Both the position numbers and the translations under genes were made by a program. The notes below the pieces were generated by a model, which searched no databases, was not told where the DNA came from, and worked only from the letters and a program-made list of their open reading frames with translations. Below, piece after piece: positions 6,834 to 58,508 of a stretch of 64,000 bases of DNA (position 1 is the stretch's first letter; the number at the start of each line of letters is the position of its first letter). This stretch comes from Microbacterium immunditiarum (GTDB lineage: Bacteria > Actinomycetota > Actinomycetes > Actinomycetales > Microbacteriaceae): NCBI RefSeq assembly GCF_013409785.1, contig NZ_JACCBV010000001.1, positions 3,842,868 to 3,906,867 of the forward strand. The letters are read 5' to 3'.

Positions 6834-6861
6834 TGGCGGTGACGGTGGGATTTGAACCCTT
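6834..6861 (-). repeat. tRNA 3'-end repeat 1 (putative att site)
   Basis: 28 bp identical to 41390-41417 and 58481-58508. On the minus strand the core reads TTCAAAT (T loop), CCCAC (T stem), CGTCACC (acceptor strand), G, CCA. G73 and this acceptor suggest tRNA-Ser. The 5' half of a tRNA is absent, so this is a fragment of the kind left by site-specific integration at a tRNA 3' end. Confidence 0.75.
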
Positions 6862-7237
6862 CTCTTCGCCCATCGCCCGTGTGGGCTTGAATCTCCTCGC
6901 CTTGACTCGCCGCGGTTCGACGAGACTCAGAGCGCAATCCGGAAGCGCTCAGCGTTGCTCGCATCTTCTCAAATGCCCCTCAAGCCGGGCGTCAGCAGTG
7001 CCGCGTGTGCGGCTGGCGCAGGATCGCCCGGTGCCCATGGGTTCGTCTCGTGGCGTGTTCGTATTCCGCGACGTACACCGCATTGACCGGCGATGTGCGC
7101 AACCCGAGCCTGCGGCTTTGTAGCCCTACCTCACCTCCGCAATCGGTGACGTCGTCGCGTTCACGCGGGGCTGCAGGAAGCTGAACCACGTCACCAGGAG
7201 TGCTACCAACGCGGATACGCCTCGTACGACGGCTATG
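6862..7237. other. 376 bp without a supported gene
   Basis: Short frames exist on both strands, but none has a convincing start, composition or family resemblance. The region lies just inside the putative island end, where an integrase gene would be expected, and none is seen. Unlike copies 2 and 3, this repeat copy lacks the conserved flank found to their right. Confidence 0.5.
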
Positions 7238-7600
7238 TCACACCCATGGCTCCACCGCAAGCTGCGTTGCGTCGACTGGAGCAATCAACACACCGCCTGA
7301 GTCTTCGCGGTAGACCTCGAGTTCGTTAAGCATTCCTTCGATCACATGGATTAGCACGTGGACCACGACACCATCTGCGTCGGCGTAGGTCGCTTCGACG
7401 GGAATGCGCCGAGCCACTGACACCGGAGTGGCATCGACAGGGTGCAGGCGCAGGCTTCCGTCCCGATCGATGGGCTCGACGAGCAGCATCCTCAGTTGCT
7501 GACTCAGAGCCTCGGCGCCATCGAAGTCGAGTGTGAGCAATCGCTGGAGTAGCTGCTTCTCCGAGGCTGAAGGCGGACGGAGACCTTCGTCATGGCACAT
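7238..7600 (-). CDS. DUF6984-like protein, probable immunity protein
   Basis: 120 residues from the ATG at 7600, which overlaps the 3' end of the RHS toxin gene by 11 nt. The pattern R-P-P-S-A-S-E-K-Q-L-L-Q-R-L-L, then Q-L near 35, a D-x-D-G-V-V-V-H-V-L-I-H-V strand and E-L-E-V-Y-R-E-D resembles the DUF6984 family of small proteins. The protein is acidic and cytoplasmic. A small acidic gene overlapping the end of a polymorphic toxin gene is the standard position of an immunity gene. Family assignment is from memory of the motif; the immunity role is inferred. Confidence 0.6.
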   Translation of the reverse strand: MCHDEGLRPPSASEKQLLQRLLTLDFDGAEALSQQLRMLLVEPIDRDGSLRLHPVDATPVSVARRIPVEATYADADGVVVHVLIHVIEGMLNELEVYREDSGGVLIAPVDATQLAVEPWV

Positions 7601-9212
7601 AGTAGGTCCCGACGTTGATCGTGCCATCCGGCAGCGTGTACGCCCGATATTCGATCGTGGTCCCCCTGATCTGGATGCGCCCCCAGAACGAGCCCGTCTC
7701 TGGCGTCGCCTGAGATGCGGCCGTCTTCACCCGCTGCAGGATAGTCGACTCGACCTCCTCAACGCTCAGCCCAGTGCCTTCCAGGTGTCGCGCTCCGTGA
7801 CCGAACGTGATCTTGGGAGCGTCGACGGCGATATCCGCCACCTCGTCCGCCGACGTTGCGGCGGCGCTTTCGTTCTTCCAGATTTCGGCTCTACTGTCGC
7901 TCATCGCGTGGCTGGCCAGCCCGGCACCGCCGGCTGCGACCGCAGCGCCGCCCGTGGCGATAAGACCGACCGACGCGGCGACCGCTGCGACACCAGCAGG
8001 GCACCCCACACCGGTCACGCAGACAGCGCCACCCCCGGCAGCCCCCGCGCCCCCCGCGAGGATGAATAGGGCGCCGGCGATCAATTCGACCACTAAGTCG
8101 GGATGTTGGAGCATCGCATTTCCCAAGGACGCGATCCCGTTTACAGCGCTTGCGAGGATCTGTTGCTCGGCGGCGTGAGTGGGTGATGGCGTCCACGGCG
8201 TGAGTACCTGCGGTGCATTCTGTTTGTGCACCTTCACGGGCGGCGCGATCACACCAGCGGTAGCTGGGAGTGGCTTGGCGTACCGGCCGTCGTCGACGCG
8301 GTGCCACATTCGCCCGGTCGGGTCGGCCCAGGTGAACGGGTTGTTCCCCGCATAGACGTACGCGTTGAACTGTGCCGGCACGCCCGGGTTCAGTTCGGGG
8401 TCGACGCTGATGAACACGCCCGCGGTGGGGTCGTAGAACCTCTCACCGAGCAGCACGAGTCCGGTCGGGTCGGCGGGGGCGCCGAGGAACCCGCGCCCGG
8501 CGACGGTGCCGTCCTGCCCGGCACGGGCAGCGCCGAACGGTTCTGCCCGCAGCCGGTCCACCGCGGCGGTGGGGTCGGTGGCGGGGACGGTTGCGATCGG
8601 GGTGCCGTGCGCGTCGGTGACCACGGATGCGACCCCGGAGAGGCCGACGCCGGTGCGGACCGCGACGGTGGTGCCCGCCAACGTGTACCACCGGGACGCG
8701 GTGACCGTGGTGTCAGTGGCGTGGACCTCCTGCCCGCCCGGGAGGAACACGGTCGCCCCGGTCTCGTCGATCCGGACCAGCCGGTTCCCGGACGCGTCGA
8801 ACACGTTCACCGTGTCCCCGCCTGAACCGGTGATGCCGACCAGTTCCCCTTCCGCGTCCCAAGTCCCTTCCGCATGCCAGATCGGGCCTGTGTCGCCGCC
8901 TGTGGTGCGGGATATCTGGTTCCCGGCGGCGTCCCACCCGAACCCGGTGGTGACCGAGACCCCGCCGGTGGTCTCGGTCATCTCGGTCAGCTGGTGCGGG
9001 CCCGCCCCGTCGGCGCCGTGGACATACTCGGTGGTGGTGACCGTGGAGCCGGCGTGGTCGGTGCGGCTGGTGCGGTTGCCGAGCTCGTCGTACGTGTACG
9101 CGGTCCAGTACGGGGCCACCCCGCCGACACCCAAGGTCCCCGGGGTGCCGTCACAGTCTTCGGTCGCGGACGTCCACGCTTCCTGCAGGCGGCGTAGCCC
9201 GTCATATGCGAT
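7590..9212 (-). pseudogene. RHS-repeat polymorphic toxin, 5'-truncated by IS3 insertion
   Basis: About 540 codons remain. YD-type repeats (Y-T-Y-D-E-L-G-N-R-T, F-G-W-D-A-A-G-N) lead into the RHS core end (G-E-R-F-Y-D-P-T-A-G-V-F-I-S-V-D-P, N-A-Y-V-Y-A-G-N-N-P, D-P-T-G). Next come a Gly/Ala-rich hydrophobic segment of about 80 residues and a C-terminal toxin of about 95 residues. The toxin pattern (F-G-H-G-A-R-H-L, S-V-E-E-V-E-S-T-I, then G-x-x-x-x-Y-R-A-Y and G-T-Y-Y-V-P) suggests a BECR-type RNase fold like DUF4258; this is inference. The 5' end, including any secretion signal and most repeats, is lost at the IS3 element at 9213. Confidence 0.85.
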
Positions 9213-9250
9213 GACTCGCCCCGGCATGTCCGGAGAGTTGTTTGCTGGTG

Positions 9251-10108
9251 TCAGCCGGCTCTCTCGACCGGTTCGATGCGAGCGTAGTCGAGCTGCTCGA
9301 CCTCGAGCGGTGTGAGGTCGTCGATCGAGCCGTGGGTGCGTTCGGTGTTGAACCACAGCACCCAGGACGCGGTCGCCGCCTCGACTTGATCGACGTCCCG
9401 CCATGGGCCCTCGTGGTGGATGAGCTCGGACTTGTAGAGCCCGATCTGCGACTCCGCGAGCGAGTTGTCGTACGCGTCGCCGACAGACCCGACCGACGCG
9501 TCGATGCCTTCATCGATGAGACGGTCGGTGAAGGCGATTGACGTGTAGACGCTGCCCGCGTCGGTGTGGTGCGTGAGCCCGGCGAACCCGGCGACGCCTT
9601 CGCGTCGGCGGGTCCACAGCGCCATGTCGAGGCAGTCGAGAACGAGCGGGGTAGTCATCGAGGTGGCGGCGCGCCAGCCGAGGATGCGGCGGGAGTGCGC
9701 GTCGAACACGAACGCGACGTACACCCATCCGGACCACGTCCAGACGTAGGTGAAGTCGGCGACCCAGAGCTGGTTCGTGCGGAGCCGGGCGAAGTGCCGA
9801 TCGACGAGGTCCGCGGGCCTGGTCTCACGCAGTTCGCGATCGACGGGTCGCTTGCGGCGTCCACGAGTAACGCCAGCGATGCCCAGGTCTCGCATGAGCC
9901 GCTCGACGGTGCAACGGGCGATGTCATGCCCATCGCGCCGCAACCTCAGCCAGAGCTTGCGGGCGCCGAGCACCTTCCGCTGCTTCTGCCACGTCGCGAG
10001 GATGATCGGCTTCCACCGCTCGTCCGACACCTCCCGCGCCGAGGGGCCACGGTCTCTCGCGTCGTAGTAGGTCGATGGGGCGATCTTCACGCCGTGCTGG
10101 GTGAGCAC
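9251..10108 (-). CDS. IS3-family transposase OrfB (integrase domain)
   Basis: 285 residues. An N-terminal HTH_21-like region (T-Y-Y-D-A-R-D-R-G) precedes an rve catalytic core with the DDE residues in V-A-D-F-T-Y, H-H-T-D-A-G-S-V-Y and S-L-A-E-S-Q-I-G-L-Y-K-S-E. The frame stays open upstream of the ATG and overlaps the orfA end. The active enzyme is presumably an OrfAB fusion made by -1 frameshifting, as in the family. The stop lies just inside the left inverted repeat. Confidence 0.95.
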   Translation of the reverse strand: MLTQHGVKIAPSTYYDARDRGPSAREVSDERWKPIILATWQKQRKVLGARKLWLRLRRDGHDIARCTVERLMRDLGIAGVTRGRRKRPVDRELRETRPADLVDRHFARLRTNQLWVADFTYVWTWSGWVYVAFVFDAHSRRILGWRAATSMTTPLVLDCLDMALWTRRREGVAGFAGLTHHTDAGSVYTSIAFTDRLIDEGIDASVGSVGDAYDNSLAESQIGLYKSELIHHEGPWRDVDQVEAATASWVLWFNTERTHGSIDDLTPLEVEQLDYARIEPVERAG

Positions 10109-10179
10109 GTCGCAGATCGACTCGACACCCCACCGCAGACCACCATCACGGCGGTCCTTGTGCTCCTCGATGAACGCGA

Positions 10180-10503
10180 CTATCGCTTCTGTGGCCGGTC
10201 GAGCTCGGCCGCGAAGAAGGCCGAAGCCGCCTTCAAGATCTCGTTCGCGCGACGCAGCTCGGCGTTCTCGCGCTTGAGCCGCTTGATCTCCTCCGCCGCT
10301 TCGGTCGTGACACCGGGCCGGTCGCCGGCGTCGATCTGGTTCCGGCGGATCCAGGTGCGGATCGTCTCCGGCGACCCGATGCCGAGCATCTGCGCGACCG
10401 CGATCATCGCGGCGTACTCGCTCGGATAGTCGGGCCGCACCTCGGCGACCATACGGACGGCGCGCTCACGAAGCTCGCGCGAATACTTGCTGGGACGTCC
10501 CAT
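10180..10503 (-). CDS. IS3-family OrfA (DNA-binding protein)
   Basis: 107 residues: a helix-turn-helix (G-R-P-S-K-Y-S-R-E-L-R-E-R-A-V to I-G-S-P-E-T-I-R-T-W-I-R) followed by a leucine-zipper-like coiled coil (E-E-I-K-R-L-K-R-E-N-A-E-L-R-R-A-N-E-I-L-K). The ATG lies 50 nt inside the right end of the element. It binds the IS ends and shares a transcript with orfB. Confidence 0.93.
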   Translation of the reverse strand: MGRPSKYSRELRERAVRMVAEVRPDYPSEYAAMIAVAQMLGIGSPETIRTWIRRNQIDAGDRPGVTTEAAEEIKRLKRENAELRRANEILKAASAFFAAELDRPQKR

Positions 10504-10816: not shown

Positions 10817-13800
10817 TCAGTTGATGACGAGCTCGGGTCGGTAGAGGGTGTTTGGATTCTCCTTGGACGCGTAATTGACGTATCCCGCCGCACCCTGGTT
10901 GGTGGGGGACAGAAGTTGGATCGAGAGGAGCGAGTCGTTGGCGACCGCGATCCGTACCTGCTCGGTGACATCCAGCTCCACCGGTGTCCCGGCAGTGGGC
11001 ACCGTCCACGAACCGACCATCGTCACGCCGGCCGGTTGGCTCCTCCAAGTGAGTATCGATTCGCTCCAGTTGGGGTCGCTCACGGAGTACGCCTGGTTGG
11101 AGAGGCCGGCCGCACCAGTGCTTGTCGGAACGAGTCTGAGCGTGGCACTGGTGACACCTCCGGTGACGCCAGCGAGGTCGAACTTCACGAAAGCTCGGCG
11201 ACTGTAGCCTGTGCCATCGTTCTTGACATACAGTTGCTGGTCAGCGCCGTAATTGGTATCCGCGTATGTTCCGTCGCGGACGAACGCGTCAGCAGTCGCC
11301 CCTACGGATACATGCGGATTGCTCGGATTCACGACGAGCACCGGACGGTAGGCGGCCGTCGAGTTCTCCCTGCTCCCATAGCTCGCCGAGGCGTTCGAAC
11401 CTTGATTCGTAGGCGACGAAACAAGGACCGAGATCATGTTGTCCCCACCGACTCCCAGGGCTTCCTGGGCCTCAGCTGTGACATCAAACGTCACCGGAGC
11501 GCCGGGTTCTGGCACAGTCCAACTCGCGATCGCCGTTGCGCTCGCCGCGGGCTGGTTGTTCCAGGTGAGGGCGGTTTCGTTCCAGGTATTGTCGAGCACA
11601 AGGTTCGCCTGATTGGTGATTCCCGTCATTCCGACGGTCGTCGGAACCAATTGAACCTGAGCGCTGGTGATCGCCCCGGTGATCGACGAGAGATCGAACC
11701 GGACGAATGACCTGCGGCTGAAGCCGACCCCATCATTCTTTACGGTCATCGTCTTCGACGTTCCGAAGTTCGTTTCGGCGCTGGCACCGTCCTGAATGTG
11801 CGCATCAGCGGCCGCCCCCAATGTCACAGACGGGTGCTGCATTCTGTTCGGTACTGCGCCTTGTTCGTTGGAGATCACGCTTTCTCCTGCGGCGCTGGAC
11901 GCCACCACGGCGAAGTAGTAGGGCGTCCCGTTGGTCAGCCCGGTGACTGTGTGTCTGTTCGGGGAGCTCACGCTCTCGGCTGGGACGGTGGTTGTGTAGG
12001 TTCCGGGTAAAGTGCCGTACTTGACTTGGTATCCTGTCGCGTCATTCACATTCGCCCAGTTCAGCGTGACCGTGCCGTCGCCGAACGAGGGCGTGTCGAG
12101 GACGGGCGCATCAGGTACGGTGGGTGATCCCAGATCGAATGACGCTTTCAATGCCTTGCCGTGAGTTCCGCTGACGTTTACGGTCATCTGGATCGTGGGG
12201 CTGAACTGGGTGACGGCAATGCCGGGATCCAATGAGACGATGCCACCGGGTGCGCTCCGGTTCACTTCTACATGAACGACACCGGTATTCTGCTGCGTCG
12301 GGTCGGATATCGAGAGATCAAGAACACCGTTCGCTTCACGTGTCATGACGGAAGCCTTCCTGTCGACCGTCAGGTAGTCCTGGCCCGCGACCTGCACCGT
12401 CTTCGTCGCATCCTGCCAGAAGTTCACGCCGACGGCGTTCAACGTGTTCTCTCGGACCGCCTGCGCGGAAGTGGAGTTCTCCAGGATGTCAACCTCGGGA
12501 TTTGCGGCATATTGCTGCACTTCCGTGCTGCTCCTGCCGGGCAGGACGACATAGCCATAGTTCGCATTGGTTGGGTTTGTGCCGTGATCGATCCACATCG
12601 TGGCGAAGTTGCTCGTCGAGTATTCGCGATAGTTGTTGAACGTCAGTGTCGGGTGGTACTGGCTGTTGACGGAATCCCGTGACGAGTAAGTGACCGTACT
12701 GCCCGGATCAACTGGTGACGACGCGTGAATGCGGAAGGCCACGTCGCTCTGATGACTGGCGAGCGCATTTTCAAGGGCATCGGTGACGTCGATCTGAATC
12801 GGTGTGTTCACCTGTGAGCTGTTGACATTCCACTGCACGATCGGATCAAGCGCCGTGGATGGTGGCTTGTTGTCCCAAACCAGGGTGCTCTCAGACCAGG
12901 ACGTGTCGGAGACCAGCTCGATCGTGTGGGTGATCGTGTTGGACGTGGAACCGACGGTGTTCGGGTAGAGCGTGATCACTGCCGAGTCGAATGTCACATC
13001 GCTCGGCACCTTGCCGGACAGGTTGAACTTCAGATACGTCTCACGCGTATACCCGCCACCGTCGTTCTTCACGACGAGGGTCGGATCGATTCCATGGTTC
13101 GGGTCGTTCTCGCGGGCATAGACGTCGTCTGCCGGTTTGATCGTGTACACCGTTGGGAGCGCCAGATTAATGTCGGCCAGGCTCCCTCTGCGCGCCTCCC
13201 GCGTTGCCTGGATTGTGGTCGCCGTCGGGAGGTAGTAGCCCACACTGGAGCTGCTGCCGCTCGTGGATCCTGCGACGTGGAACCAATTGGCGCCCGCGAT
13301 CGTCTCTGTCGTGCCGAGCGTGGTCGGGAAAGCCGTGCCGTCGAACGTGATGGTGTTCGAGCCGTCCGCGTTGAGCTTGCGATTGTGGATGATCGTCTCG
13401 ACACGGCGGAGCGCGCCGTCCCATCCGTTCCCTGTCTGGCCCGAGTTCGTGATGCCACCGCCGAGATCGACGACTTCGTCATCGAACATGAACCAGGACT
13501 TCTTCGCCGTAAGGTTTGATGGCGTAGCGACCGTCTTGCCGTCCAGGCTCAGATCTCCCGAGGCCAGGTAATCCATACCTGTAACCCCGTAGACGCCGTC
13601 GAGATCGGTGCCGCCCACCCAACTGTTCGGGCTGACGTAGTTCTTCCAGCTGACCGTGTTCGTGCGCGCCTGAGTGTCGATCGTCGTGCCCGGCATTCGA
13701 TACGGGTTGACCGTCTCCCAGAAGCGGAATCCTTGCCAACGCGCATCCGCATCGTAGAGATAGGTCATGCCGTCGCCGGTATACCAGCCATGAACATTGT

Positions 13801-15259
13801 TGAGGTTGCCCGACTCGTAGTTGCCAGTCCGGTTCGACGACATGCTGAGCCCGTAGCCGTACCCCGGACGAAGGTGAACGGCGCGATCCATGGCTGGGAA
13901 CTGCTTGTACTTGATCAATTCACCGCGCGGCGAAACGGACGGGTCATCGATGATCTGCTTGAACTGGAAGTACGTGAAGAGGGGAGCTCCCGCCAAGATC
14001 TTGTTGTCCGCATCTTTGCTCAGCCAGTATTTGACCATGCCGTTGTAGTAGGCCTCAGGATCGGACGGATACCCGCTGCCCAATCCGGCTCCAGTCGATG
14101 GGGCGGAGAGCATGAGCATTCCCAGTGCATGGATGATGCCGGCAGCAGTCACAGGAGGCTGCGCATTCGGGTTGCCCAACACTCCGAACGAATTGTTGCG
14201 GGCGAACGTCATGTCCATGATGTTCGTGTCGTAGATGAATGGCTCGACCGAGTCCGTGATCCACCTGTAAGCATTGACCTTGTTGGGGTCCGTTATAGCC
14301 CACGTGGACCCGTCCAGTATGTAGAGCAGTACACCCACGTCGTACAGGAGGCGCACGCCATAACCACCGATGTATGAGAACCAGGTGTGTTGGATGAATG
14401 ACCCGTCCTCGTAGAAGCCGTCCCGTGCCGATGATCCGACCTGAGTCGCAGGGTCGACGTAGGCGAGTACCGGGCCGATGCTGTCACGCGCGGAGGCGAG
14501 CTTCGTTCCATCCTCGACAAGGATTCCTCGGAAGGCCACCACAAGAGCCTGATCGATCAGGTTGGTACCCGTCATGATCGGTGACCCCGCAAGCGTTCTT
14601 GCCTGCGGAGTTGGAGTGAAGCGCTCCACCGCGCCCATGTAGTTGGCAATCTGTGCAGGAGTCAGATCGTCGTACATGAGCGTGACGATCTTCGTCAGTA
14701 CCTGCGGCGTCCCGATCTGGTAGTCGTACCAGCCACCGCCCGGGATATCGTTGGCCGGATTCGTGCCGTAGTAGTTGTCAAAGAGCCAATCCAGCGCGGC
14801 GACCACGTCATTCAAGAGAGTCGTGTTCCCGAAGTACTGCGATCCTGGCGTGTAGTACACCGTGATCATCGGATAGAGCCGGCTGTATGACGCGGTCATG
14901 TTGCGCGACAGCGTCGCCCCATCTGAGGCCGAGAACGGTTGATCCAACCACAGATAGGTTCGATTCGCCGCGTCTCTGTTCATCGAATCCCACCACCCGG
15001 ATCCGTTGTTGCAGGGTGATGCACAGGACGAAACCGCACGGTCCATCGCAGTGATCTTGTTCAGCAGATCCGAATCGGTGATCGGTGTCGTGTATTCATC
15101 CGCGCCCAGCAATAGATTCTGCAGCTTCGCCCGCAACTCGTCGTACTCGTCCACTGCGCTGGCCGGAGCCGTGGCGGTCGCGGAGATGGCCCCCACAAGC
15201 AGCACGATGCAAATGCACCGGGCGATCACTGATCGAATGCGTCGTCTTACGCTCGACAT
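10817..15259 (-). CDS. Secreted PL8-family polysaccharide lyase with DNRLRE and FN3 modules
   Basis: 1,480 residues from the ATG at 15259 (a TTG at 15274 is possible). Signal peptide 1-35 (A-S-A cleavage); PL8 alpha/alpha domain about 40-400 with catalytic-type Asn233 (G-T-N), His291 and Tyr300 (H-x8-Y, spacing as in hyaluronate lyases); PL8 beta domains to about 1045, including D-H-G at 891-893 and Q-A-V-R at 933-936. A DNRLRE (CBM96-like) module at about 704-875 interrupts the PL8 beta domain. An FN3 domain follows at about 1047-1137, then two more DNRLRE modules (about 1142-1310 and 1313-1480). No sortase motif is present, so the enzyme is free or carbohydrate-bound. It cleaves a uronic-acid polysaccharide by beta-elimination; hyaluronan, chondroitin or xanthan cannot be told apart here. 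Confidence 0.92.
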   Translation of the reverse strand: MSSVRRRIRSVIARCICIVLLVGAISATATAPASAVDEYDELRAKLQNLLLGADEYTTPITDSDLLNKITAMDRAVSSCASPCNNGSGWWDSMNRDAANRTYLWLDQPFSASDGATLSRNMTASYSRLYPMITVYYTPGSQYFGNTTLLNDVVAALDWLFDNYYGTNPANDIPGGGWYDYQIGTPQVLTKIVTLMYDDLTPAQIANYMGAVERFTPTPQARTLAGSPIMTGTNLIDQALVVAFRGILVEDGTKLASARDSIGPVLAYVDPATQVGSSARDGFYEDGSFIQHTWFSYIGGYGVRLLYDVGVLLYILDGSTWAITDPNKVNAYRWITDSVEPFIYDTNIMDMTFARNNSFGVLGNPNAQPPVTAAGIIHALGMLMLSAPSTGAGLGSGYPSDPEAYYNGMVKYWLSKDADNKILAGAPLFTYFQFKQIIDDPSVSPRGELIKYKQFPAMDRAVHLRPGYGYGLSMSSNRTGNYESGNLNNVHGWYTGDGMTYLYDADARWQGFRFWETVNPYRMPGTTIDTQARTNTVSWKNYVSPNSWVGGTDLDGVYGVTGMDYLASGDLSLDGKTVATPSNLTAKKSWFMFDDEVVDLGGGITNSGQTGNGWDGALRRVETIIHNRKLNADGSNTITFDGTAFPTTLGTTETIAGANWFHVAGSTSGSSSSVGYYLPTATTIQATREARRGSLADINLALPTVYTIKPADDVYARENDPNHGIDPTLVVKNDGGGYTRETYLKFNLSGKVPSDVTFDSAVITLYPNTVGSTSNTITHTIELVSDTSWSESTLVWDNKPPSTALDPIVQWNVNSSQVNTPIQIDVTDALENALASHQSDVAFRIHASSPVDPGSTVTYSSRDSVNSQYHPTLTFNNYREYSTSNFATMWIDHGTNPTNANYGYVVLPGRSSTEVQQYAANPEVDILENSTSAQAVRENTLNAVGVNFWQDATKTVQVAGQDYLTVDRKASVMTREANGVLDLSISDPTQQNTGVVHVEVNRSAPGGIVSLDPGIAVTQFSPTIQMTVNVSGTHGKALKASFDLGSPTVPDAPVLDTPSFGDGTVTLNWANVNDATGYQVKYGTLPGTYTTTVPAESVSSPNRHTVTGLTNGTPYYFAVVASSAAGESVISNEQGAVPNRMQHPSVTLGAAADAHIQDGASAETNFGTSKTMTVKNDGVGFSRRSFVRFDLSSITGAITSAQVQLVPTTVGMTGITNQANLVLDNTWNETALTWNNQPAASATAIASWTVPEPGAPVTFDVTAEAQEALGVGGDNMISVLVSSPTNQGSNASASYGSRENSTAAYRPVLVVNPSNPHVSVGATADAFVRDGTYADTNYGADQQLYVKNDGTGYSRRAFVKFDLAGVTGGVTSATLRLVPTSTGAAGLSNQAYSVSDPNWSESILTWRSQPAGVTMVGSWTVPTAGTPVELDVTEQVRIAVANDSLLSIQLLSPTNQGAAGYVNYASKENPNTLYRPELVIN

Positions 15260-25573: not shown

Positions 25574-25610
25574 GGCGGTTCCCTTCTCGTGGATGTACAA
25601 CCAGCGCGGC

Positions 25611-41383: not shown

Positions 41384-41389
41384 CGACGC

Positions 41390-41545: not shown

Positions 41546-41551
41546 CGGCAG

Positions 41552-42454: not shown

Positions 42455-42783
42455 TGGCCGACCTCGGCGCTCACGACAAACACGATTCCCCCGATACTGA
42501 GTGCGAGAACGGCTACGGCCAAGAGCGCGAACACGCCACCGCCGCCCAGCCGCCCCCCGAAAACAAGAGAGGCATGCGCGCGACGGTACCGAAGCGCGGC
42601 GCCGGCATACGCTCCCCCAGCCAGCGCGAGCCCGCCCAACGCGAACACGGGCGCGAGCGCCCCGAGCACGTCGACCGTGAACCGCAGCGCCAGCGCGCTG
42701 GCCACCGTCAGTGCCAGCGCGGTGCGCCGCCACGCCAGTAAAGTCCGCTCCGACTGCAACCCCGGATCGAACGGGGCATTCAT
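42451..42783 (-). CDS. DUF202-family membrane protein, copy 2
   Basis: 110 residues with three membrane helices and the family start [15 protein letters not shown]. It overlaps the previous DUF202 gene (ATGA) and the FGE gene (GTGA), so all three are translationally linked. The biochemical role is unknown; linkage to FGE may reflect a shared transcript only. Confidence 0.8.
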
Positions 42784-43151
42784 ACGACCGACCCGACTAC
42801 GATCAGCGCGGTCCCTGCCAGCACGCCGACCGTGATGACTACCCCCAGTGCCGGGCCGGGAAGGGCACGATTCTCCCGCAACGCCCGCTCCGTGCGCGCC
42901 CACCCGATCCACGCCTGGATCGCCGCGAGCATCCCGAGACTGATGAACACGATCGCCGACGCCACCCGGAACCCGGCATCGATCGGCACCCGCAACGCCA
43001 CCAACGCCACGCCACCCGCCACTAACGCCACCGACGAGCGGATCCACGCCAGAAACGTCCGCTCATTGGCCAAACTGAATCGCGGATCCGGCTCAGCTCC
43101 TCGACCGAACACCCACTCGGGAAAACGCCGATCAGACAAGTTGACCCCCAA
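42780..43151 (-). CDS. DUF202-family membrane protein (YidH type), copy 1
   Basis: 123 residues: [21 protein letters not shown] near the N-terminus and three hydrophobic helices, typical of YidH. The start codon is uncertain (TTG at 43151 or another TTG 12 nt downstream). The pair of DUF202 proteins with different lengths is commonly found side by side in bacteria. First gene of the DUF202-DUF202-FGE operon. Confidence 0.8.
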
Positions 43152-43293
43152 TCACTCTCGCGCCCCCTCGCATGATCGAGTTGGCCCGTGCCGACCGAGG
43201 GTGAGACCGTCGGACTCTGTGTGTGCGTCTGGCCATCACGATCGGCGGATGGGAGGCTCCCATTGTCAATGACATCAACTCTGAATGGCAGCT

Positions 43294-47222: not shown

Positions 47223-47242
47223 CAGCGTCGTCTCCCCTCCCA

Positions 47243-48934: not shown

Positions 48935-48970
48935 GTCGATTCCTCCTTCATCGTTGAAGACACCTGTAGA

Positions 48971-51190: not shown

Positions 51191-53163
51191 GGGAAGCGCG
51201 TCCGTCCCAGATGCGGCTGCCCGGCGAGTGTGGCCCAGTTCGCCTCACCGTTGATCCGGCGGTCATTGCTTGCCGCGAGGATGTGGCACTCGATCGGCGG
51301 TGCTTCCGTACCGCGCACGAGCTTGACGAGCACCTCGTTCCATCCCGCGTTCAGCATCACCGCGGCAGCGGTCTCCTCCCTGCCTCGATAGCTTGGACGC
51401 ACCTCCTGGTAATCGGCGAACGACTGCGCCGCGACGCCGTTCACCCAGAACTTCACCGGGCAGTTGACGTTCGCCGAGAGCCAGATCTCCTGCTCCGCGG
51501 GCGCCTCAATGAACCCCTGAAGGTAGAGAATGCCGGGCTCGTCGAAGACATCGGCGAGAGGCAGAGCGTTCTCATGCGCGGCGATGGTTCGCCAGTCGCC
51601 AGCGCGCCCGCCTTCCGTGAGGACGTCGCCCACCCGTGTCTCGGGCTCATGCGGCAGTGCGAGCTCCTCGGCCGCCGACTCCCCGTCCGACAGGGGGAAT
51701 GGCCCGCTCACTCGGTACGATCCGGCGCCCACCAGCACGATGGGTATCGACGGCTGAGGTGGCCGCTCATGGGGCGTCACGGTGAGGTAAAGGATGTTGC
51801 TGTTGTGAAGATCGGCCGGCGCAGGCCCGGTCACGTGCCACGAGATATCTGCGCTTCCGTGCGCGGGCAGTTCGACGCGCTGGGCTTCGGGAAGGCCCCA
51901 CCCGCTCGGACCGTCGATGACGCAGGTCACCGTGATCGCCTGCGGTCGGATGTTCTCGAGACGAGTGATCAGCGACTTGGTCTCTCCCGAGGCGATCGCC
52001 GGTAGATCGATGTACTCGACGGCGACATCGACGTCGAGGCCGGGGAAGAACACCTCCGTCGGACTCGAGTCACGCAGCGCGATGATCGCGTCGTCGGCGT
52101 AGAGGTCCTCCTTCGAGACCCGGACGATCCCGTCCTCCCCCATCACGCCGTGCGCGCGGAGGACCATCCGGGCGGCCCGCTGCACACGGTCGGTCAATTC
52201 CGTCATGTTCGTCGGGATCGGGTTCCGCACGTCGGAGACGTTCATGATTCCGCGGAGCGATTCCGTCGTGGAGATCGTCTCCCCGAGCGGCTCGAGCCAC
52301 TTCGCTGGGAGTCCGGACCGACCTGAGATGAGACCGAGATAGCTTCCGGTCGACGCTCCCGACGAGTCGGTGTCGTACCCGCAGTTCACCGTCTTGCACA
52401 GCGCGTCGCCGAAGTCCTCGCCGTAGAGCAGGCCGATGATCTGGAATCCCATGTTCAGCGGCGAGTACTGCGCGTTGTAGTGCGGCGTCGCCTGCATGAC
52501 CCGCTCGCGAGCCTGCTTCCAGTCCAGCCCCTCTGCGTGTGCGGAGCGAGCCGCGTTGATGGCGCGGGCGGTGAGGCTGGATTCCGGGATGTACGACATC
52601 CCGATGTCGATGAGTTCCTGCACATCCTCGATGACGAACGTCGCCGACTCCAGCGCGACGTTGAAGAGCTCGCCGTAGACCGACTCTCCACCGGCGTGGT
52701 CGCAGATCGCATCCATGTACGCGTAACGCGCGGCGATCCGCGGCGCCCCGGGAGCAAGGCAGGCCCAGATCTCCGATCTGATCGGGCAACCCATACAGTC
52801 CTTGAACCAGTTGCTGTAGCTCCCGCTCAACGGCGGCTCCAGGCCGAGCTTCATGTTCATCTTGCTGAGCCCGTACTCGTCGGGGTTGTACCCGATGTGA
52901 TCGAGCCAATAGCGGACGAGGTGTCGTGATGTCAGGCCCGGGCCGACCTCCTCGATCGCCTTGAGCCAGATCAGCTGCATCTCGAGGTCGTCATTCGGGA
53001 TGCCGCCCTCCTCGACCTGCGTGTACCACCACACGTCGAGCGGCTCCGGCTTGCCGAATGCCTCCTCGAGCGGCGCGCCGAGCGTGCCGCCGGCGTTCTT
53101 GCCCAGCCAGCATCCATCGACCTTGTCTCGATAGCGCTCGCCGTTGACATTGATTTCCAGCAA
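51181..53163 (-). CDS. ADP-ribosylglycohydrolase-like protein with C-terminal beta domain
   Basis: 660 residues, TTG start with AAAGGG 8 nt before it. The N-terminal 330 residues follow the ADP-ribosylglycohydrolase helical fold, with N-D-D-L-E-M-Q near residue 57 and C-G-Y-D-T-D-S-S-G-A-S at about 265 as the metal-binding aspartate sets. The remaining half is beta-rich, with W-x-V-N-G and G-W-N-E-V-L-V-K patterns of carbohydrate-binding or jelly-roll domains. Such proteins recur in polysaccharide operons, but their substrate there is not established. A glycosidase-like role is speculation. It lies 6 nt after the permease gene. Confidence 0.8.
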   Translation of the reverse strand: MLEINVNGERYRDKVDGCWLGKNAGGTLGAPLEEAFGKPEPLDVWWYTQVEEGGIPNDDLEMQLIWLKAIEEVGPGLTSRHLVRYWLDHIGYNPDEYGLSKMNMKLGLEPPLSGSYSNWFKDCMGCPIRSEIWACLAPGAPRIAARYAYMDAICDHAGGESVYGELFNVALESATFVIEDVQELIDIGMSYIPESSLTARAINAARSAHAEGLDWKQARERVMQATPHYNAQYSPLNMGFQIIGLLYGEDFGDALCKTVNCGYDTDSSGASTGSYLGLISGRSGLPAKWLEPLGETISTTESLRGIMNVSDVRNPIPTNMTELTDRVQRAARMVLRAHGVMGEDGIVRVSKEDLYADDAIIALRDSSPTEVFFPGLDVDVAVEYIDLPAIASGETKSLITRLENIRPQAITVTCVIDGPSGWGLPEAQRVELPAHGSADISWHVTGPAPADLHNSNILYLTVTPHERPPQPSIPIVLVGAGSYRVSGPFPLSDGESAAEELALPHEPETRVGDVLTEGGRAGDWRTIAAHENALPLADVFDEPGILYLQGFIEAPAEQEIWLSANVNCPVKFWVNGVAAQSFADYQEVRPSYRGREETAAAVMLNAGWNEVLVKLVRGTEAPPIECHILAASNDRRINGEANWATLAGQPHLGRTRFPWQ

Positions 53164-53169
53164 AACGAA

Positions 53170-54096
53170 TTACCCTTTCACACCGGTGATGACGACGCCT
53201 TGGATGAACCAACGCTGCGCGAGGAAGAACAGGATGAGGCACGGCGCCATTGCGATCGTCGCCGCGGCCATCATCAGGGGATAGTTCTGGGACTGCTCGC
53301 CCACGAAGTTCACGATCCCGAGGCTGATCGGGAACATGTCCTGCGACGTCAGATAGATCAGCGGCCCGAAGAACTCGTTCCAGTTCCCCATGAACGAGAA
53401 CAGGCTGATGATGATCAGGGCCGGCTTCGCCTGCGGCAGGACGATGGTGAAGAAGATGCGGAACGTCCCTGCCCCATCGATCTTCGCCGCGTCGTCGATC
53501 TCCGGCGAGATGCTCAGGAAGAACTGGCGCATCAGGAACGTGGCGAACGGAGTGGCGAAGAAGCCGGGAACGATCAGCGGCAGATAGGTGTCGAGCCACC
53601 CGAGTTCGCGGAACAGGATGAACTGCGGGATGAGCGTCGCCCAGCCGGGCACCATCATGGTCGAGAGCATGATGAAGAACAGCGTGTCTCGCCCGCGGAA
53701 CCGGAACCGCGCGAAGGCGTAGCCGGCGATCGAACTTCCCACCACCGTCCCGAGCACCCCGAAGAAGGTCAGGACGACGGTGTTCAGCAGGTACCTGCCG
53801 AACGGCGCTGCCTCGAACAGGTCGACGTAATTGCCCCACATCCAGGGGTCGGGCAGCCATTCGATGGGATAGGAGAAGACCTGTCCCGCGGTCTTGAGGC
53901 TGGTCGACAGCATCCAGAAGAACGGGATGAGGAACGCCACCGACCCGAGAATGAGGATCGCATAGCTGATGCCCGCGTTGGTCGTCCGCATGAGCCGTCG
54001 ACGCGGCGGTCGAGAGCGCTTCTCGGGCACGGTCGCGGTGCGGTCTTCGCGTGCGGACGCGGTCTGCTCTTCGCGCACGATCACGGTGTGAGTCAT
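53170..54096 (-). CDS. Sugar ABC transporter permease (MalG type), island C
   Basis: 308 residues from the ATG overlapping the MalF-type stop (ATGA). A basic cytoplasmic N-terminus of about 40 residues, six membrane helices and the EAA loop D-D-A-A-K-I-D-G-A-G-T-F. CUT1 importer subunit; the ATPase is not encoded nearby. Confidence 0.93.
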   Translation of the reverse strand: MTHTVIVREEQTASAREDRTATVPEKRSRPPRRRLMRTTNAGISYAILILGSVAFLIPFFWMLSTSLKTAGQVFSYPIEWLPDPWMWGNYVDLFEAAPFGRYLLNTVVLTFFGVLGTVVGSSIAGYAFARFRFRGRDTLFFIMLSTMMVPGWATLIPQFILFRELGWLDTYLPLIVPGFFATPFATFLMRQFFLSISPEIDDAAKIDGAGTFRIFFTIVLPQAKPALIIISLFSFMGNWNEFFGPLIYLTSQDMFPISLGIVNFVGEQSQNYPLMMAAATIAMAPCLILFFLAQRWFIQGVVITGVKG

Positions 54097-54998
54097 CGGC
54101 TGTCCTTCGCTCCGGCGTAGAAGACCCAGGTCTTGGAGGTCATGAACACGACCACGGTGATGACGACGACGATCAGGAAGAGGAACACCGAGAGCGCCGA
54201 CGCGTACCCGAGACGAAGGTCGCGGAACGCGGAGTTGTAGATGTGCAGGGCGAAGAAGTAGCTGCCGTAGTTCGGCCCGCCCTTCGTCAGCACGTAGGCC
54301 TGCACGAACACCTGGAACGAGTTGATGGTGCCCATGACGAGCTGGAACAGGATCACCGGAGACATCATCGGGATCGTCACCGACCGGAGGGTGTCCCACC
54401 ACGAGGCCCCGTCGAGTTTCGCGACCTCATACAACTCGGTCGGAATTCCCTGCAACCCGCCCAAGTAGATGATGATCGAGCCGCCCACGCCCCACAGAGT
54501 GATCATGACCAGCGACGGGATCACCCAGAACTGATCCTGGAGCCAGCCGATCGGTGGGACCCCGAAGAGGCCGAGGAACCAGTTCAGCACGCCGTACTCC
54601 CGGTGGAACACGAAGCCCCAGAGCACGGCGACGGCGACGCCCGAGAGCACCGACGGGAGGTAGTAGATCGTGCGGAACACCGTCACGCCGCGCAGCTTCT
54701 GATTCATCAGCAGCGCCAAGCTGAAGCCGATCAGCAGGCTGACGGGAACGTAGATCACCGTGAACAGGCCGGTCACCTTCAAGGACTGCCAGAACAGCGG
54801 ATCGTCCGTGAACATCTCCGCATAGTTGGCGAAGCCCACCCATTGAGGTGCCCCGGTTCCGTTCCACTCGGTGAAGCTGAGCGCAAAGGCCGCCAGGATC
54901 GGGATCGCCGTGAACGCGAGGAACCCGACCATCCACGACTGAACCCATAGCCAACCCGTGGCCGCCTCACGGCGTGCAAGCGTGAGTCGCGACGCCAT
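54093..54998 (-). CDS. Sugar ABC transporter permease (MalF type), island C
   Basis: 301 residues from ATG 54998, which shares one base with the binding-protein stop (TGATG). Six helices and the EAA-type loop Y-E-V-A-K-L-D-G-A-S-W-W. Partner of the following MalG-type permease. Confidence 0.93.
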   Translation of the reverse strand: MASRLTLARREAATGWLWVQSWMVGFLAFTAIPILAAFALSFTEWNGTGAPQWVGFANYAEMFTDDPLFWQSLKVTGLFTVIYVPVSLLIGFSLALLMNQKLRGVTVFRTIYYLPSVLSGVAVAVLWGFVFHREYGVLNWFLGLFGVPPIGWLQDQFWVIPSLVMITLWGVGGSIIIYLGGLQGIPTELYEVAKLDGASWWDTLRSVTIPMMSPVILFQLVMGTINSFQVFVQAYVLTKGGPNYGSYFFALHIYNSAFRDLRLGYASALSVFLFLIVVVITVVVFMTSKTWVFYAGAKDSR

Positions 54999-56323
54999 CA
55001 CTTGATCTTTTCGGCCGCCGCGTTGACGTCCTCCTCCAGCGCCGCGAGAGCCACAGCGGGGTCCTCTCCGCTCGTCATGGACTGCACACGGTTGGTCCAC
55101 GCCGTGTTGAACGCATCCCAGTACACCGGGTACGACCACTTCACGGCGTCCTCGAGCATCTGGTCGGGGAAGACGCTGATGTTCTGCGGAGGCAGACCCG
55201 CGTTGCCGGCGACTTCCCTCCAGCGCTCTGTGGACGACTGACGGCCGGGAATGCCGCTGACCTGTTCAGACATCAGGAAGTTCAGCTCATCCTCACTGGT
55301 GAGGTGGCGCATCAGCTCGAATGCCTGTTCCGGACTCTCCGAGTCCTTCGACAGCGCCCATGCACCACCCGCCGTGGCAACCGCACGTTCACCGCTGCTC
55401 CCCTTCGGGAGCTTGATGACATCCCACTCGAATTCGTCTCCGATCGCGTTGCGATGGATCGATGCCTCCCAAGATCCACCGACATGCATCGCGACGAGGC
55501 CCGAGTTGAACGGGTGCATGCCCTGCGGCAGCGCTCCCGGCTGCGGCGTAACCCCCTTCTCGGCCTGCTCAAGCAGGAATCGGAAGGTCTCGACGTTCTC
55601 AGGCGAATTGATGACGGAGCGCGATCCGTCTTCGGTGAAGGTCTCGCCGCCGTTCGCCTTGAGAATGCCCATCATCAGCCACGGCGTGAAGGGCACGAAC
55701 GCACCCCACCGGGTCTGCCGCGAGCCATCGGTCTGCGGGAATTCTGCCGCGATGTCGAAGAACTCTTCCCACGTCCAGTCCTCGGTCGGAAGCTCTATGC
55801 CGGCATCCGCGAACATCGTCTTGTTGACGTAGACGGCGAAGTTGGAGAAGTCGTAAGGGAGCGCGTAGAGCTCCCCCTCGTAAGACATCTGTGCGACCTC
55901 AGCAGGCCAGAAGTCCTCCACATCGGCGTCGGAGACATAGTCCTCCAACGACTGCTGCCACTTGTTCGCGGCGTTGGCGGGGATTTCCTGAGTGCGGGCG
56001 AAGAAGACGTCAGGCAGCTGGTTGCCCACCGCCGCCGTCTTGAGCTTGGTGTAGTAGTCCGCGCCTGCGATGTTCAGCAATTCGACCGTGATCTGCGGGT
56101 TCGCCTCCGAGAACCGGTCGATCGATTCCTGAATCAGAGTCGCCTGCTCGGCCGCTCCGTTGAACCAGATCTGCAGGTTCGCCGCGCCATCGCCGGCGTG
56201 TGCCTCCTCCGGTTCACTGCCGGGACTGCACGCTGCCAGCCCGCAGATCGTGGCGAGAGCGACGGTCACACCGACGCCCCGCAGAAAAGTGCGCTTCGTT
56301 GCCGAACGCGTGCTCAGAGACAT
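54998..56323 (-). CDS. Sugar-binding lipoprotein of ABC transporter, island C
   Basis: 441 residues from the ATG at 56323, which has GGAGAGG 8 nt upstream; an ATG at 56350 lacks this. Signal peptide with lipobox L-A-A-C (Cys about 32), then an SBP_bac_1 fold (A-N-L-Q-I-W-F-N-G at the mature start, G-G-A-W-A-L-S-K-D-S later). It delivers oligosaccharides to the two permeases. It follows the LacI gene by 82 nt on the same strand. Confidence 0.93.
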   Translation of the reverse strand: MSLSTRSATKRTFLRGVGVTVALATICGLAACSPGSEPEEAHAGDGAANLQIWFNGAAEQATLIQESIDRFSEANPQITVELLNIAGADYYTKLKTAAVGNQLPDVFFARTQEIPANAANKWQQSLEDYVSDADVEDFWPAEVAQMSYEGELYALPYDFSNFAVYVNKTMFADAGIELPTEDWTWEEFFDIAAEFPQTDGSRQTRWGAFVPFTPWLMMGILKANGGETFTEDGSRSVINSPENVETFRFLLEQAEKGVTPQPGALPQGMHPFNSGLVAMHVGGSWEASIHRNAIGDEFEWDVIKLPKGSSGERAVATAGGAWALSKDSESPEQAFELMRHLTSEDELNFLMSEQVSGIPGRQSSTERWREVAGNAGLPPQNISVFPDQMLEDAVKWSYPVYWDAFNTAWTNRVQSMTSGEDPAVALAALEEDVNAAAEKIK

Positions 56324-56405
56324 GATTGAGGTCCTCTCCGTCGAGTTCATAGGGTTCGTTCAATGGGTGGATAGACGCACCAGGGGTACGCCGTGTGCCG
56401 TGAAG

Positions 56406-57404
56406 TCAGATCGGCGCCGTGGAGTCGCGGACGACGAGCTCGCACGAGAGCAGACGTTCGACCGCTTCCGAATCCCGGCGGCCGGTCACCCGGTCGAGCA
56501 GGAGTCTTGCCGCATATCGCCCGAGTTCCTGCTTCGGCTGCGCGACGGTCGTCAGCGGCGGCACCGAATGACGTGCGACCTCCGAATCGTCGAATCCGAC
56601 GACCGAGAGGTCGTCGGGAACACGAAGCTGACGCCGATATGCCGCATGCAGCACCCCGAGCGCGATGAGGTCGTTGGCGGCGAACACCGCCGTCGGCGGA
56701 TCCGCCATCTCGAGAAGTCGCGCACCCGCGAGGACGCCGCCTTCCCGGTTGGGCTCGCCTTCGCACACCAACGCAGACTCGACGGGCAGGCCGATGCTCT
56801 CCACCGCGTCGAGATATGCCTGGCGACGAGATTCCGCCTGGCGGTGTGCACCGACGTACGCAATGCGCCGATGCCCCAGATCGTGCAGATGTGACATCGC
56901 CGACCTACCGCCGGAATACGTGTCCGATGCGACGAGATCCGCTTCCATCGGCTCACGAGCCGCGCCGACCCGAACGACAGGAAGCCCTTCGTGGGCGGCG
57001 TGGCGCAGGTACTCATCGACGGCGGGGGACTCCTGCGGCGACATGATGAGCCCGTCGAGCTGGTGGCCACGCAAAGCCGCGAGCGTCTGAAGTGTGCGTT
57101 GCTCGTCTCGGCCTGTCGATGCGGTCACAACGCAGTAGCCTTCGAGGATCGCCTCCTCCTGCAGACCCTGCACAAGCTCCGCCGTGAAGGGGTTGGCGAG
57201 GTCGGACGTGACGAATCCGATCAGTCCCGACCGCTTGGTCGTGAGGCTGCGCGCCGCTGTGTTCGGGACGAATCCGAGCTCGTCGATCGCACGCCGGATC
57301 TTCTCCGAACTGACGGGACCGACGTAGCCGCGCGCATTGACGAATCGAGACACGGTGCCGATGGACAGGCCCGCCCGCGCGGCAACGTCGTACATGGTCA
57401 CCAT
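56406..57404 (-). CDS. LacI-family regulator of island C
   Basis: 332 residues from the ATG at 57404 with AGGAGGTG 6-7 nt upstream. HTH M-Y-D-V-A-A-R-A-G-L-S-I-G-T-V-S-R-F-V-N and effector domain with V-V-G-F-D-D-S-E. It heads the nine-gene minus-strand series down to 43294 and is divergent from the esterase at 57544. Twin operators lie between them. Confidence 0.93.
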   Translation of the reverse strand: MVTMYDVAARAGLSIGTVSRFVNARGYVGPVSSEKIRRAIDELGFVPNTAARSLTTKRSGLIGFVTSDLANPFTAELVQGLQEEAILEGYCVVTASTGRDEQRTLQTLAALRGHQLDGLIMSPQESPAVDEYLRHAAHEGLPVVRVGAAREPMEADLVASDTYSGGRSAMSHLHDLGHRRIAYVGAHRQAESRRQAYLDAVESIGLPVESALVCEGEPNREGGVLAGARLLEMADPPTAVFAANDLIALGVLHAAYRRQLRVPDDLSVVGFDDSEVARHSVPPLTTVAQPKQELGRYAARLLLDRVTGRRDSEAVERLLSCELVVRDSTAPI

Positions 57405-57440
57405 CGCTCTCACCTCCTGCTGATCCGCGCGGACCCAGTC

Positions 57441-57475
57441 TGTTACCGGTTACAGATTTTGTGTCACCGGTTACA
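57441..57475. promoter_or_regulatory. Paired LacI operators, divergent control region
   Basis: TGTTACCGGTTACA (57441-57454) and TGTCACCGGTTACA (57462-57475), 21 bp apart (two helical turns), each a near-perfect palindrome around CCGG. They lie 36 bp before the LacI start and 68 bp before the esterase start, so the LacI protein probably controls both directions. Confidence 0.75.
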
Positions 57476-57543
57476 CTAAGCCAGGTCAGGAAAAGGTGTC
57501 AACAGCATGGGTGCACATCGGCACTCGAGAGAGGCATCAAACG

Positions 57544-58287
57544 ATGCGAGTAACAACCGTCGGGGTGGGCCCAGCCGAAGCGCGGCTCACCGCGTACATC
57601 CAGGACGTATCCAGCGTCGTCCGGAACTCCACTGCGCGCCCAGCCGTGCTGATCTTGCCCGGTGGCGGCTACCAGACCACATCCGATCGCGAGGCCGAGC
57701 CCATCGCGCTCGCCTTCCTCTCGGAGGGGTACAACGCGTTCCTGCTCCGCTATCGCGCCGACGTCGAGTCGACGTTCGGGCAGGCGCTGACCGACGCAGA
57801 GGCCGCAATGAGGTACCTCCAGGAGAACGCCGAATCGCTGGCCATCGATGCGTCAAGGATCATCACCTGCGGGTTCTCGGCAGGTGGTCACTTGGCCTCC
57901 GCGCTCGGCACGATCTCTAACGACAAGCCGGCCGCGCAGATTCTGCTCTACCCCGTCATACTTTCAGCCTTCGGAGAGCGGATGCGGACGGTGATTCCGT
58001 CCACGAACGACGCCGTGACGGCGGACACACCTCCGACGTTCCTGGCGGCCACCCGGTCCGACCATGTGGTGCCGATCTCGCACACGCTTGCATTCGCGAA
58101 TGCACTCGACGACGCTGGCGTGCCATTCGAACTCCACGTCTACGGCACAGGCCCCCATGGATTGTCGCTGGGCAAGACATGCACTGCGGCCGGCTCCAGA
58201 ACGTTCGTCGACGTGCCGTGGCAGGCTTGGTTCGGCCAGGCAACGACATTCCTCAAGCATCACATCGGCGAATTCGATGTCGCATGA
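57544..58287 (+). CDS. Alpha/beta-hydrolase esterase (BD-FAE/acetyl esterase-like)
   Basis: 247 residues from the ATG at 57544 with GAGAGAGG 9 nt upstream; a GTG at 57496 is less likely. Oxyanion region L-P-G-G-G-Y, nucleophile Ser in G-F-S-A-G-G-H-L-A, Asp in R-S-D-H-V-V-P and His in G-P-H-G-L-S. The fold and motif set match small carbohydrate esterases such as acetylxylan or feruloyl esterases. No signal peptide. It is controlled from the same region as the island C operon, so it probably removes acyl groups from the imported glycan. Confidence 0.85.
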   Translation: MRVTTVGVGPAEARLTAYIQDVSSVVRNSTARPAVLILPGGGYQTTSDREAEPIALAFLSEGYNAFLLRYRADVESTFGQALTDAEAAMRYLQENAESLAIDASRIITCGFSAGGHLASALGTISNDKPAAQILLYPVILSAFGERMRTVIPSTNDAVTADTPPTFLAATRSDHVVPISHTLAFANALDDAGVPFELHVYGTGPHGLSLGKTCTAAGSRTFVDVPWQAWFGQATTFLKHHIGEFDVA

Positions 58288-58434
58288 CGGATGAGGACGG
58301 AGCGAGGGGGTGGCCGCCTCAATCTAGACGCGGATAGGTGTCGTTGCGCGAGACCGCCGGGCATGTCCGAAACCCGCCAGGATTCGCATGCCGTGAGAAG
58401 CATTTTTCCCACTTCCTACCCATGGACATATGCC

Positions 58435-58477
58435 GATGCCTCGCGATCCCAGTGTTTTCAAGGGATCGCGAGGCATC
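58435..58477. terminator. Hairpin next to tRNA-end repeat 3
   Basis: A perfect 16-bp stem (58435-58450 with 58462-58477, GATGCCTCGCGATCCC and complement) and an 11-nt loop. It lies immediately downstream of the tRNA end on the minus strand and is homologous to the hairpin at 41344. Confidence 0.8.
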
Positions 58478-58480
58478 GAA

Positions 58481-58508
58481 TGGCGGTGACGGTGGGATTT
58501 GAACCCTT
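58481..58508 (-). repeat. tRNA 3'-end repeat 3 (putative att site)
   Basis: Third identical 28-bp copy. On the minus strand it ends ...CGTCACC-G-CCA. The tRNA 5' half is again absent, so an intact gene, if present, lies to the right of the window. Confidence 0.75.

Follow-up and report, generated by a model that had tools for sequence, protein, structure and literature searches.

The window analysed here comprises the last 64,000 nucleotides of the single 3,906,867-bp contig of Microbacterium immunditiarum (RefSeq assembly GCF_013409785.1, contig NZ_JACCBV010000001.1, positions 3,842,868 to 3,906,867), the contig on which all genome-wide searches were made and whose coordinates are prefixed C1 below. 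It carries a 28-bp sequence, AAGGGTTCAAATCCCACCGTCACCGCCA, that is identical at window positions 6834-6861, 41390-41417 and 58481-58508, always on the minus strand, exactly as an earlier note on this DNA had reported. That note read the repeats as the 3' end of a tRNA-Ser lacking its 5' half and as marks of serial integration.

6834 to 6861, minus strand: core copy c2, consisting of the T loop, 3' T stem, acceptor strand and CCA of tRNA-Ser(CGA); 5' half absent
41390 to 41417, minus strand: core copy c3, identical in sequence to c2
58481 to 58508, minus strand: core copy c4, identical in sequence to c2

Neither ARAGORN nor Rfam returned a tRNA or other RNA family in the window. By scanning the whole genome with up to 3 mismatches allowed, we found six matches to a 26-bp core, all exact over the 26 bp and all on the minus strand: c1 at C1:3841569, 1.3 kb to the left of the window, c2 at 3849701, c3 at 3884257, c4 at 3901348, c5 at 98264 and c6 at 164082. 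The unit common to the six copies is GGGTTCAAATCCCACCGTCACCGCCA, which covers part of the T arm, the acceptor strand and the CCA. ARAGORN called a tRNA at c6 only, a 91-nt tRNA-Ser with anticodon CGA (C1:164082-164172), and copies c1 to c5 are fragments of a tRNA 3' end. The identification of the repeats was thus correct, and extending the sequence rightward led, as the note had anticipated, to a complete tRNA-Ser on the minus strand that ends in the same 3' sequence, about 170 kb to the right of c4, the last copy in the window. If the contig is circular, the order in the sense of the tRNA is tRNA (c6), c5, c4, c3, c2, c1, with spacings from c6 to c1 of 65.8, 103.8, 17.1, 34.6 and 8.1 kb and a total length of 229 kb. 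We take circular closure from the single contig, a completeness of 100 and a 1377-codon reading frame running across the contig ends, albeit with a low coding score per codon. A seventh copy was not found in the 406 kb around the array (C1:3700001 to 200000) at up to 7 mismatches.

A dispersed repeat, or a motif resembling a tRNA by chance, with no link to integration can for practical purposes be dismissed as an explanation of the copies. At up to 3 mismatches the core gave 3 matches in the window and none in each of 100 dinucleotide shuffles, and the six genomic copies lie, together with their parent tRNA, on one strand of one 229-kb arc and nowhere else. The reversed pattern, used as a control, had no match in the whole genome. 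A longer element common to all copies was ruled out, the six sharing 26 bp only, though on the island side c3 and c4 have a 138-bp stretch in common, with 108 positions identical. Integron cassette arrays are made of short cassettes with attC sites. Such an array was rejected here on the grounds that the repeats are a tRNA 3' end and the units 8-104 kb long, no attC search having been made.

The copies divide the array into five islands, numbered I1 to I5 from c1 towards the tRNA. The two nearest the tRNA, I4 and I5, resemble integrative and conjugative elements (ICEs). Three islands and the end of a fourth fall within the window:

1 to 6833 (window part; 8.1 kb in total, to C1:3841595), no strand assigned: island I1, sulfur genes
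6862 to 41389, no strand assigned: island I2, about 34.5 kb, PL8, hexuronate and galactose genes
41418 to 58480, no strand assigned: island I3, 17.1 kb, sulfatase and rhamnosidase genes; tyrosine integrase not found
58509 to 64000, no strand assigned: distal end of the ICE-like island I4, which continues across the contig end to C1:98263; insertion sequence (IS) pair of the IS21 type at 59333-61323

Gene scans bore out that gene content shifts at each core copy of the window. In I1 (9 of 12 called genes scanned) we found a metal-sensitive-type repressor, a thioredoxin, a metallo-beta-lactamase (MBL)-rhodanese protein (2066-3490), TauE (3511-4302), Lgt (4350-5291), DUF4395, a rhodanese (6076-6447) and a DsrE-like protein. 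Island I2 (25 of 26 genes scanned) encodes a PL8 lyase with CBM96 (10817-15205), ABC genes, GH1, a mandelate-racemase-type enzyme among the hexuronate genes (23796-28405), mannitol dehydrogenase, UxaC, glycerate kinase, galactose genes (35290-38390) including a galactokinase with a ThuA domain and GalT, four LacI-type regulators, an IS3 pair (9251-10503) and an IS481-like transposase (39959-41221). Island I3 (12 of 13 genes scanned) holds genes for a formylglycine-generating-enzyme-like protein (41552-42454), a rhamnosidase (44661-47222), a sulfatase (48971-51130), an esterase-like protein (57544-58287), a GDSL lipase, a pectate-lyase-like protein, an ADP-ribosylglycohydrolase, ABC transporter and substrate-binding proteins and a LacI regulator.

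None of these three islands gave a match to PF00589 (tyrosine integrase), PF08751 (TrwC relaxase) or PF12696 (coupling protein), other relaxase and recombinase families not having been searched genome-wide. No remnant of either intact integrase of the array was found in the window (best E 0.04). We thereby rejected the idea that the window hides a tyrosine integrase, both by PF00589 and by comparison with the two array integrases; the rve gene beside c3 is IS481-like (197 bits against an NCBIfam cut-off of 224) and was discarded as an integrase candidate. The gene content suggests that I1 to I3 resemble cis-mobilizable elements (CIMEs).

Two further observations concern I2. The 641-aa protein encoded at 35290-37215 is a galactokinase fused to the C-terminal ThuA domain. 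Three tandem 26-bp repeats (about AGAACTGTCACCCATGTCCTGACACA) overlap and follow the IS481-like transposase gene, the whole spanning 39959-41276 and ending about 110 bp from c3, and to the right of c1 there is part of a related transposase (82% over 192 aa).

Integrases are present elsewhere in the array. Of eight PF00589 matches in the genome, three lie at the array, after c5, c6 and c1 ("before" and "after" a core being used in the sense of the tRNA, the minus strand of the contig). The gene after c5 (C1:96768-98084, 438 aa) is 0.2 kb from the core, and that after c6 (C1:161091-162317, 408 aa) is 1.8 kb from it, the two proteins being 56% identical. The one to the left of c1 is broken, and its C-terminal piece is 86.6% identical to the c5 integrase over 164 aa. 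The loss of integrases supposed in the note would apply to the three window islands, but not to the array as a whole, where two intact ones and a broken one are found. Its "gene graveyard" to the right of 58508 was a misreading: this segment is the distal end of I4, a 103.8-kb ICE-like island with relaxase, coupling protein and integrase.

The gene content of I4 and of I5 (65.8 kb) was sampled only. In I4 we found IS21 pairs, a RamC-like lanthipeptide enzyme, a P450, a rhamnosidase, GH92, IS110, an M23 peptidase and SSB, along with genes of transfer type, namely a TrwC relaxase, a TraG/TraD-type coupling protein, a VirB4-like protein and an SCO6880-family protein, and the integrase; the VirB4-like NCBIfam matches are below the curated cut-off and the SCO6880-family match is above it. 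Partial examination of I5 revealed the integrase, a TrwC relaxase, a coupling protein, a zeta-toxin-domain protein, a subtilase and a ThiF protein. Both genomic matches to the coupling protein family and two of the three to the TrwC family lie inside I4 and I5, and in both islands the integrase adjoins attL. With a tyrosine integrase, a MobF relaxase and a coupling protein each, I4 and I5 look like ICEs, judging by their predicted genes.

Three side observations can be added. Two IS21 pairs with identical proteins lie in the same orientation in I4 (window 59333-61323 and C1:60988-62978), about 66 kb apart, and if they recombined with each other most of the island could be lost. The RamC/LanC-like lanthipeptide synthetase gene (C1:9700-12333) lies within I4 outside the window. 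Directly upstream of both array integrases is a gene for a protein of about 200 aa without Pfam match (C1:95838-96440 and C1:160508-161098, the pair 43% identical), whose family also occurs upstream of related integrases in four other genomes (G048, G023, G232 and G117); it is possibly an integrase partner or directionality factor.

We then compared the sequences on either side of each core copy. The features concerned within the window are:

6806 to 6832, minus strand: hairpin after c2, of the AAAACCCC...GGGGTTTT class, which in relatives also follows intact tRNA-Ser
41341 to 41384, minus strand: hairpin arm after c3 (attL-side arm of I2), 35/42 identical to the arm after c4
58434 to 58478, minus strand: hairpin arm after c4 (attL-side arm of I3), similar to the arm after c3
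41416 to 41553, minus strand: arm before c3 on the island side (attR arm of I3), directly adjoining the core and matching the arm before c4 at 108/138 positions
58507 to 58644, minus strand: arm before c4 on the island side (attR arm of I4, which is ICE-like), matching the arm before c3 at 108/138 positions
6901 to 6919, minus strand: weak att-arm motif match 42-60 bp before c2, score 4.7
41457 to 41475, minus strand: weak att-arm motif match 42-60 bp before c3, score 6.6
58548 to 58566, minus strand: att-arm motif match 42-60 bp before c4, score 8.5

The integrase-free I3 ends like I4, since the arms before c3 and c4 agree at 108/138 positions right up to the core. After the core, identities were 113/158 between c1 and c5 and 36/42 between c5 and c6. 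For I1 to I3 the core of attL and attR is exact and arms are shared; the motif, however, scores low at c2 and c3, and IS-like repeats lie in the arm before c1. The hairpins have perfect stems of 13 bp after c2 and 17 bp after c4, and after c3 there is a 25-nt imperfect (76%) inverted repeat that overlaps the core in part. They differ among copies and sort into classes, two of which accompany integrase genes in other genomes. Sorting was done by regular expression and is rough, many loci being short; a match to the array integrases lay near 5 of 7 hairpin sites of class A (two of them from this genome), 5 of 39 of class B, none of 36 of class C and 2 of the unsorted rest. The note had described a terminator-like hairpin after each copy, as after a real tRNA gene. 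A hairpin is indeed present at all three, but from the classes and their association with integrases at least some are att arms of the elements and not the tRNA's own terminator.

A motif that we read as near AACCGCRTRATTNCGCGG, 45-60 bp before the core, is common to 26 fragments, 21 of them from other genomes. Its information was 5.92, as compared to a maximum of 3.01 in 1000 shifted controls, and 6.05 against 3.53 for the relatives alone. A matrix built from 17 of the 21 relatives' right arms, retained for passing a first-pass score, was used to scan both strands of 406 kb of this genome. The eight best positions overlap and amount to two sites, about 45 bp or less after c5 (18.0) and after c6 (14.8), the best elsewhere scoring 13.3; before c5 (-4.7) and c1 (-7.6) the motif is absent. 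These results indicate the same near-palindrome on both sides of the core beside intact integrases, where after the core it is part of the hairpin.

Separately, in 10 of 213 distinct after-core arms (L029, L044, L073, L148, L157, L161, L164, L169, L187 and L199) a TGTGATGTCT- or TGTCCTGAG-type end begins 0-2 nt past the CCA of the tRNA, with an rve transposase nearby in three. Such ends could belong to a DDE element, or be its solo ends, targeting this tRNA 3' end.

The hairpin classes bear on where the original chromosomal end of the tRNA lies. It might be c2, with I1 and c1 a separate older insertion or captured chromosomal DNA; the AAAACCCC/GGGGTTTT class that follows c2 also follows many intact tRNAs, and by our own reading it follows the distal copy in 7 of 17 two-copy arrays of related genomes (G215, G157, G205, G255, G236, G021 and G032, as opposed to G120, G177, G176, G232, G124, G012, G017, G050, G010 and G117). 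However, the same class also follows the intact tRNA ahead of islands (G176, G195). Moreover, I1 is low in G+C and its genes have relatives in an ICE-like island at this tRNA in G117, and if c2 were the original end I1 and c1 would need another explanation. We consider this variant unlikely, though it retains a real chance.

All islands are foreign in composition. The G+C content of I1 to I5 is 0.655-0.666, about 4-5.5 points below the flanks (0.704 and 0.710), and that of an arbitrary stretch to the left of c1 is 0.677. The codon index is 0.50-0.58 in the islands versus 0.70 in the right flank, which is also the reference set. To the right of the tRNA lies a lactate/malate-dehydrogenase-type gene, matched in 16 of 40 stretches, some short, that were fetched from relatives around this tRNA. 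No gene group immediately downstream of the tRNA was common to most of these 40 stretches, the best groups occurring in 4 to 6. Among five relatives compared over about 80 kb, conserved chromosome resumes on the left at C1:3776248 against G008 and C1:3750057 against G056, with scattered matches only for G011, G045 and G049.

Related arrays were sought in 247 genomes of the genus, this one included. The exact core is absent from 16, present once in 176 (as an intact tRNA, confirmed in the fetched loci only) and present two or more times in 55, some of these not in tandem. Six copies, in the present genome, is the largest number, followed by four. Among the matches listed in a scan of a wider collection, the named ones are mostly from Actinomycetota. 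The tRNA comes first and the fragments after it in 13 of 13 related arrays that were read, and also in G117. We searched PF00589, and no other recombinase type, in 20 chosen genomes with more than one copy (19 of 54, plus G021, whose second copy has one mismatch). An integrase directly follows the tRNA copy in four (G157, G261, G257, G021), is partial or broken there in two (G017, G124) and lies elsewhere inside the array in four (G232, G255, G032, G099), and no PF00589 match was found in or beside the array in ten (G281, G265, G195, G215, G120, G177, G176, G205, G236, G050). In G281 and G265 the fragments share arms, as judged by eye, though PF00589 integrases are absent. A hexuronate-region gene of I2 lies inside the array in G281 and G215.

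At the same tRNA, G117 has an 87.8-kb island with an integrase, a TrwC relaxase and relatives of the I4 transfer operon (g128-g139, 51-87% identity), together with a cluster of relatives of six I1 genes in a different order (Lgt 71%, MBL-rhodanese 69%, others 39-62%). Since these relatives sit within an ICE-like backbone, it is plausible that I1 is former ICE cargo. The same island, along with the similarly low G+C of all islands and the transfer of whole CIME-ICE tandems reported in a review (PMC5704250), could also be taken to mean that the array, or most of it, arrived as one composite element built in another host. We regard such an origin as very unlikely: the after-core arms belong to different classes and the two intact integrases are only 56% identical, which suggests different elements, and none of the 246 other genomes exceeds four exact copies.

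Taken together, the polarity, the foreign composition, the conserved att arms and the related arrays support serial integration at one tRNA 3' end, as the note had proposed, and we conclude that the copies are very probably att-site scars of accretion at tRNA-Ser(CGA). The simplest account is that at least five elements integrated serially, the ICE-like ones nearest the tRNA and the integrase-free cargo further off. A tyrosine integrase would recombine an incoming circle, at its 26-bp core, with the 3' end of the tRNA. The tRNA would be rebuilt upstream and a 3' fragment would remain at the far side, with the hairpin after each core supplied by the element. Repetition of this event would yield tRNA-I5(65.8 kb)-c5-I4(103.8 kb)-c4-I3(17.1 kb)-c3-I2(34.6 kb)-c2-I1(8.1 kb)-c1-decayed remnant. 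Having retained core and arms, I1 to I3 would depend on an ICE for any further movement, either recombining with it or travelling alongside it. The order of events, past or present mobility and cis-mobilization are in this account what we infer from the arrangement.

Several observations weigh against it. Besides the hairpin class shared by c2 and intact tRNAs, the arm motif is weak before c2, c3 and c4, and the c1 site, at 11.4, is outranked by several unrelated places in the same scan. The outermost remnant has no visible far end, there being no copy to the left of c1, and the placement of the tRNA at the right depends on the presumed circular closure. Codon usage gave no clean trend when examined for an age order of the islands, the reference set being the right flank itself. 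Cargo is also found away from the tRNA: the closest relative of the I1 MBL-rhodanese protein (80%, G110), whose gene occurs in 9 of 99 genomes including this one, is not near its tRNA-Ser copy, and the hexuronate-region gene was rejected as hotspot-only cargo, being present in 120 of 247 genomes and mostly elsewhere among those listed.

A broader extension of the accretion account would make tRNA-Ser(CGA) a shared dock for integrase-free cargo across Microbacterium. A small number of ICE integrases, acting for the most part in trans or in cis, would keep this cargo circulating by recognising one att layout, in which the same near-palindrome stands on either side of the core, with one copy in the terminator hairpin. 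The idea arises from the 10 of 20 multi-copy genomes without PF00589 integrase in or beside the array, from the arms nonetheless shared in G281 and G265, and from the recurrence over many genomes of the motif some 57 bp ahead of the core. We find it rather unlikely.

Accretion itself is already known from Dehalococcoides, Streptomyces and Streptococcus, and this array is a large new example; no report of it was found in a literature search that reached few subscription papers. Tycheposons are likewise cargo elements that target tRNA genes. Ccr proteins are serine recombinases. By analogy the array fits the accretion model of ICE/CIME tandems (PMC5704250), Dehalococcoides (PMC3146451) and Streptomyces (PMC9513070). 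The Dehalococcoides ssrA islands are there described as tandem, bounded by one RNA gene and short direct repeats and carrying catabolic cargo, 15 of them lacking an integration module and suggested to be cis-mobilizable (PMC3146451). The likeness lies in tandem islands at one RNA gene, some without integration module, with catabolic cargo. They differ in the use of ssrA, a 20-bp repeat, a location within 100 kb and the integrase DsiB, compared in that text with Ccr proteins (PMC3146451), whereas the present array has tRNA-Ser, a 26-bp core, tyrosine integrases, 229 kb and ICE-like backbones inside. Actinomycete ICEs (AICEs) of Streptomyces likewise stack as actinobacterial conjugative elements at one tRNA, a tRNA-Arg, with identical direct repeats and a remnant element, cis-mobilization being discussed as a possibility (PMC9513070). 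One to three AICEs or defective AICEs with a traB signature are reported there, as against the MobF relaxase, TraG-type coupling protein and VirB4-like protein found here. In ICE/CIME tandems, elements without integration or transfer genes retain attL and attR beside ICEs or integrative and mobilizable elements; hosts and integrases are different, and the CIME-ICE tandem transfer reported in that review would here be conjectural (PMC5704250).

The array shows how one actinobacterium gathered polysaccharide, hexuronate and sulfur genes, by island stacking at one tRNA. Its ICE-like elements and its integrase-free cargo sit at opposite ends, an arrangement in which cis-mobilization could be tested. 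Finally, because two or more exact core copies occur in 55 of the 247 genomes, tRNA-Ser(CGA) marks a place in which to seek cargo in other species.

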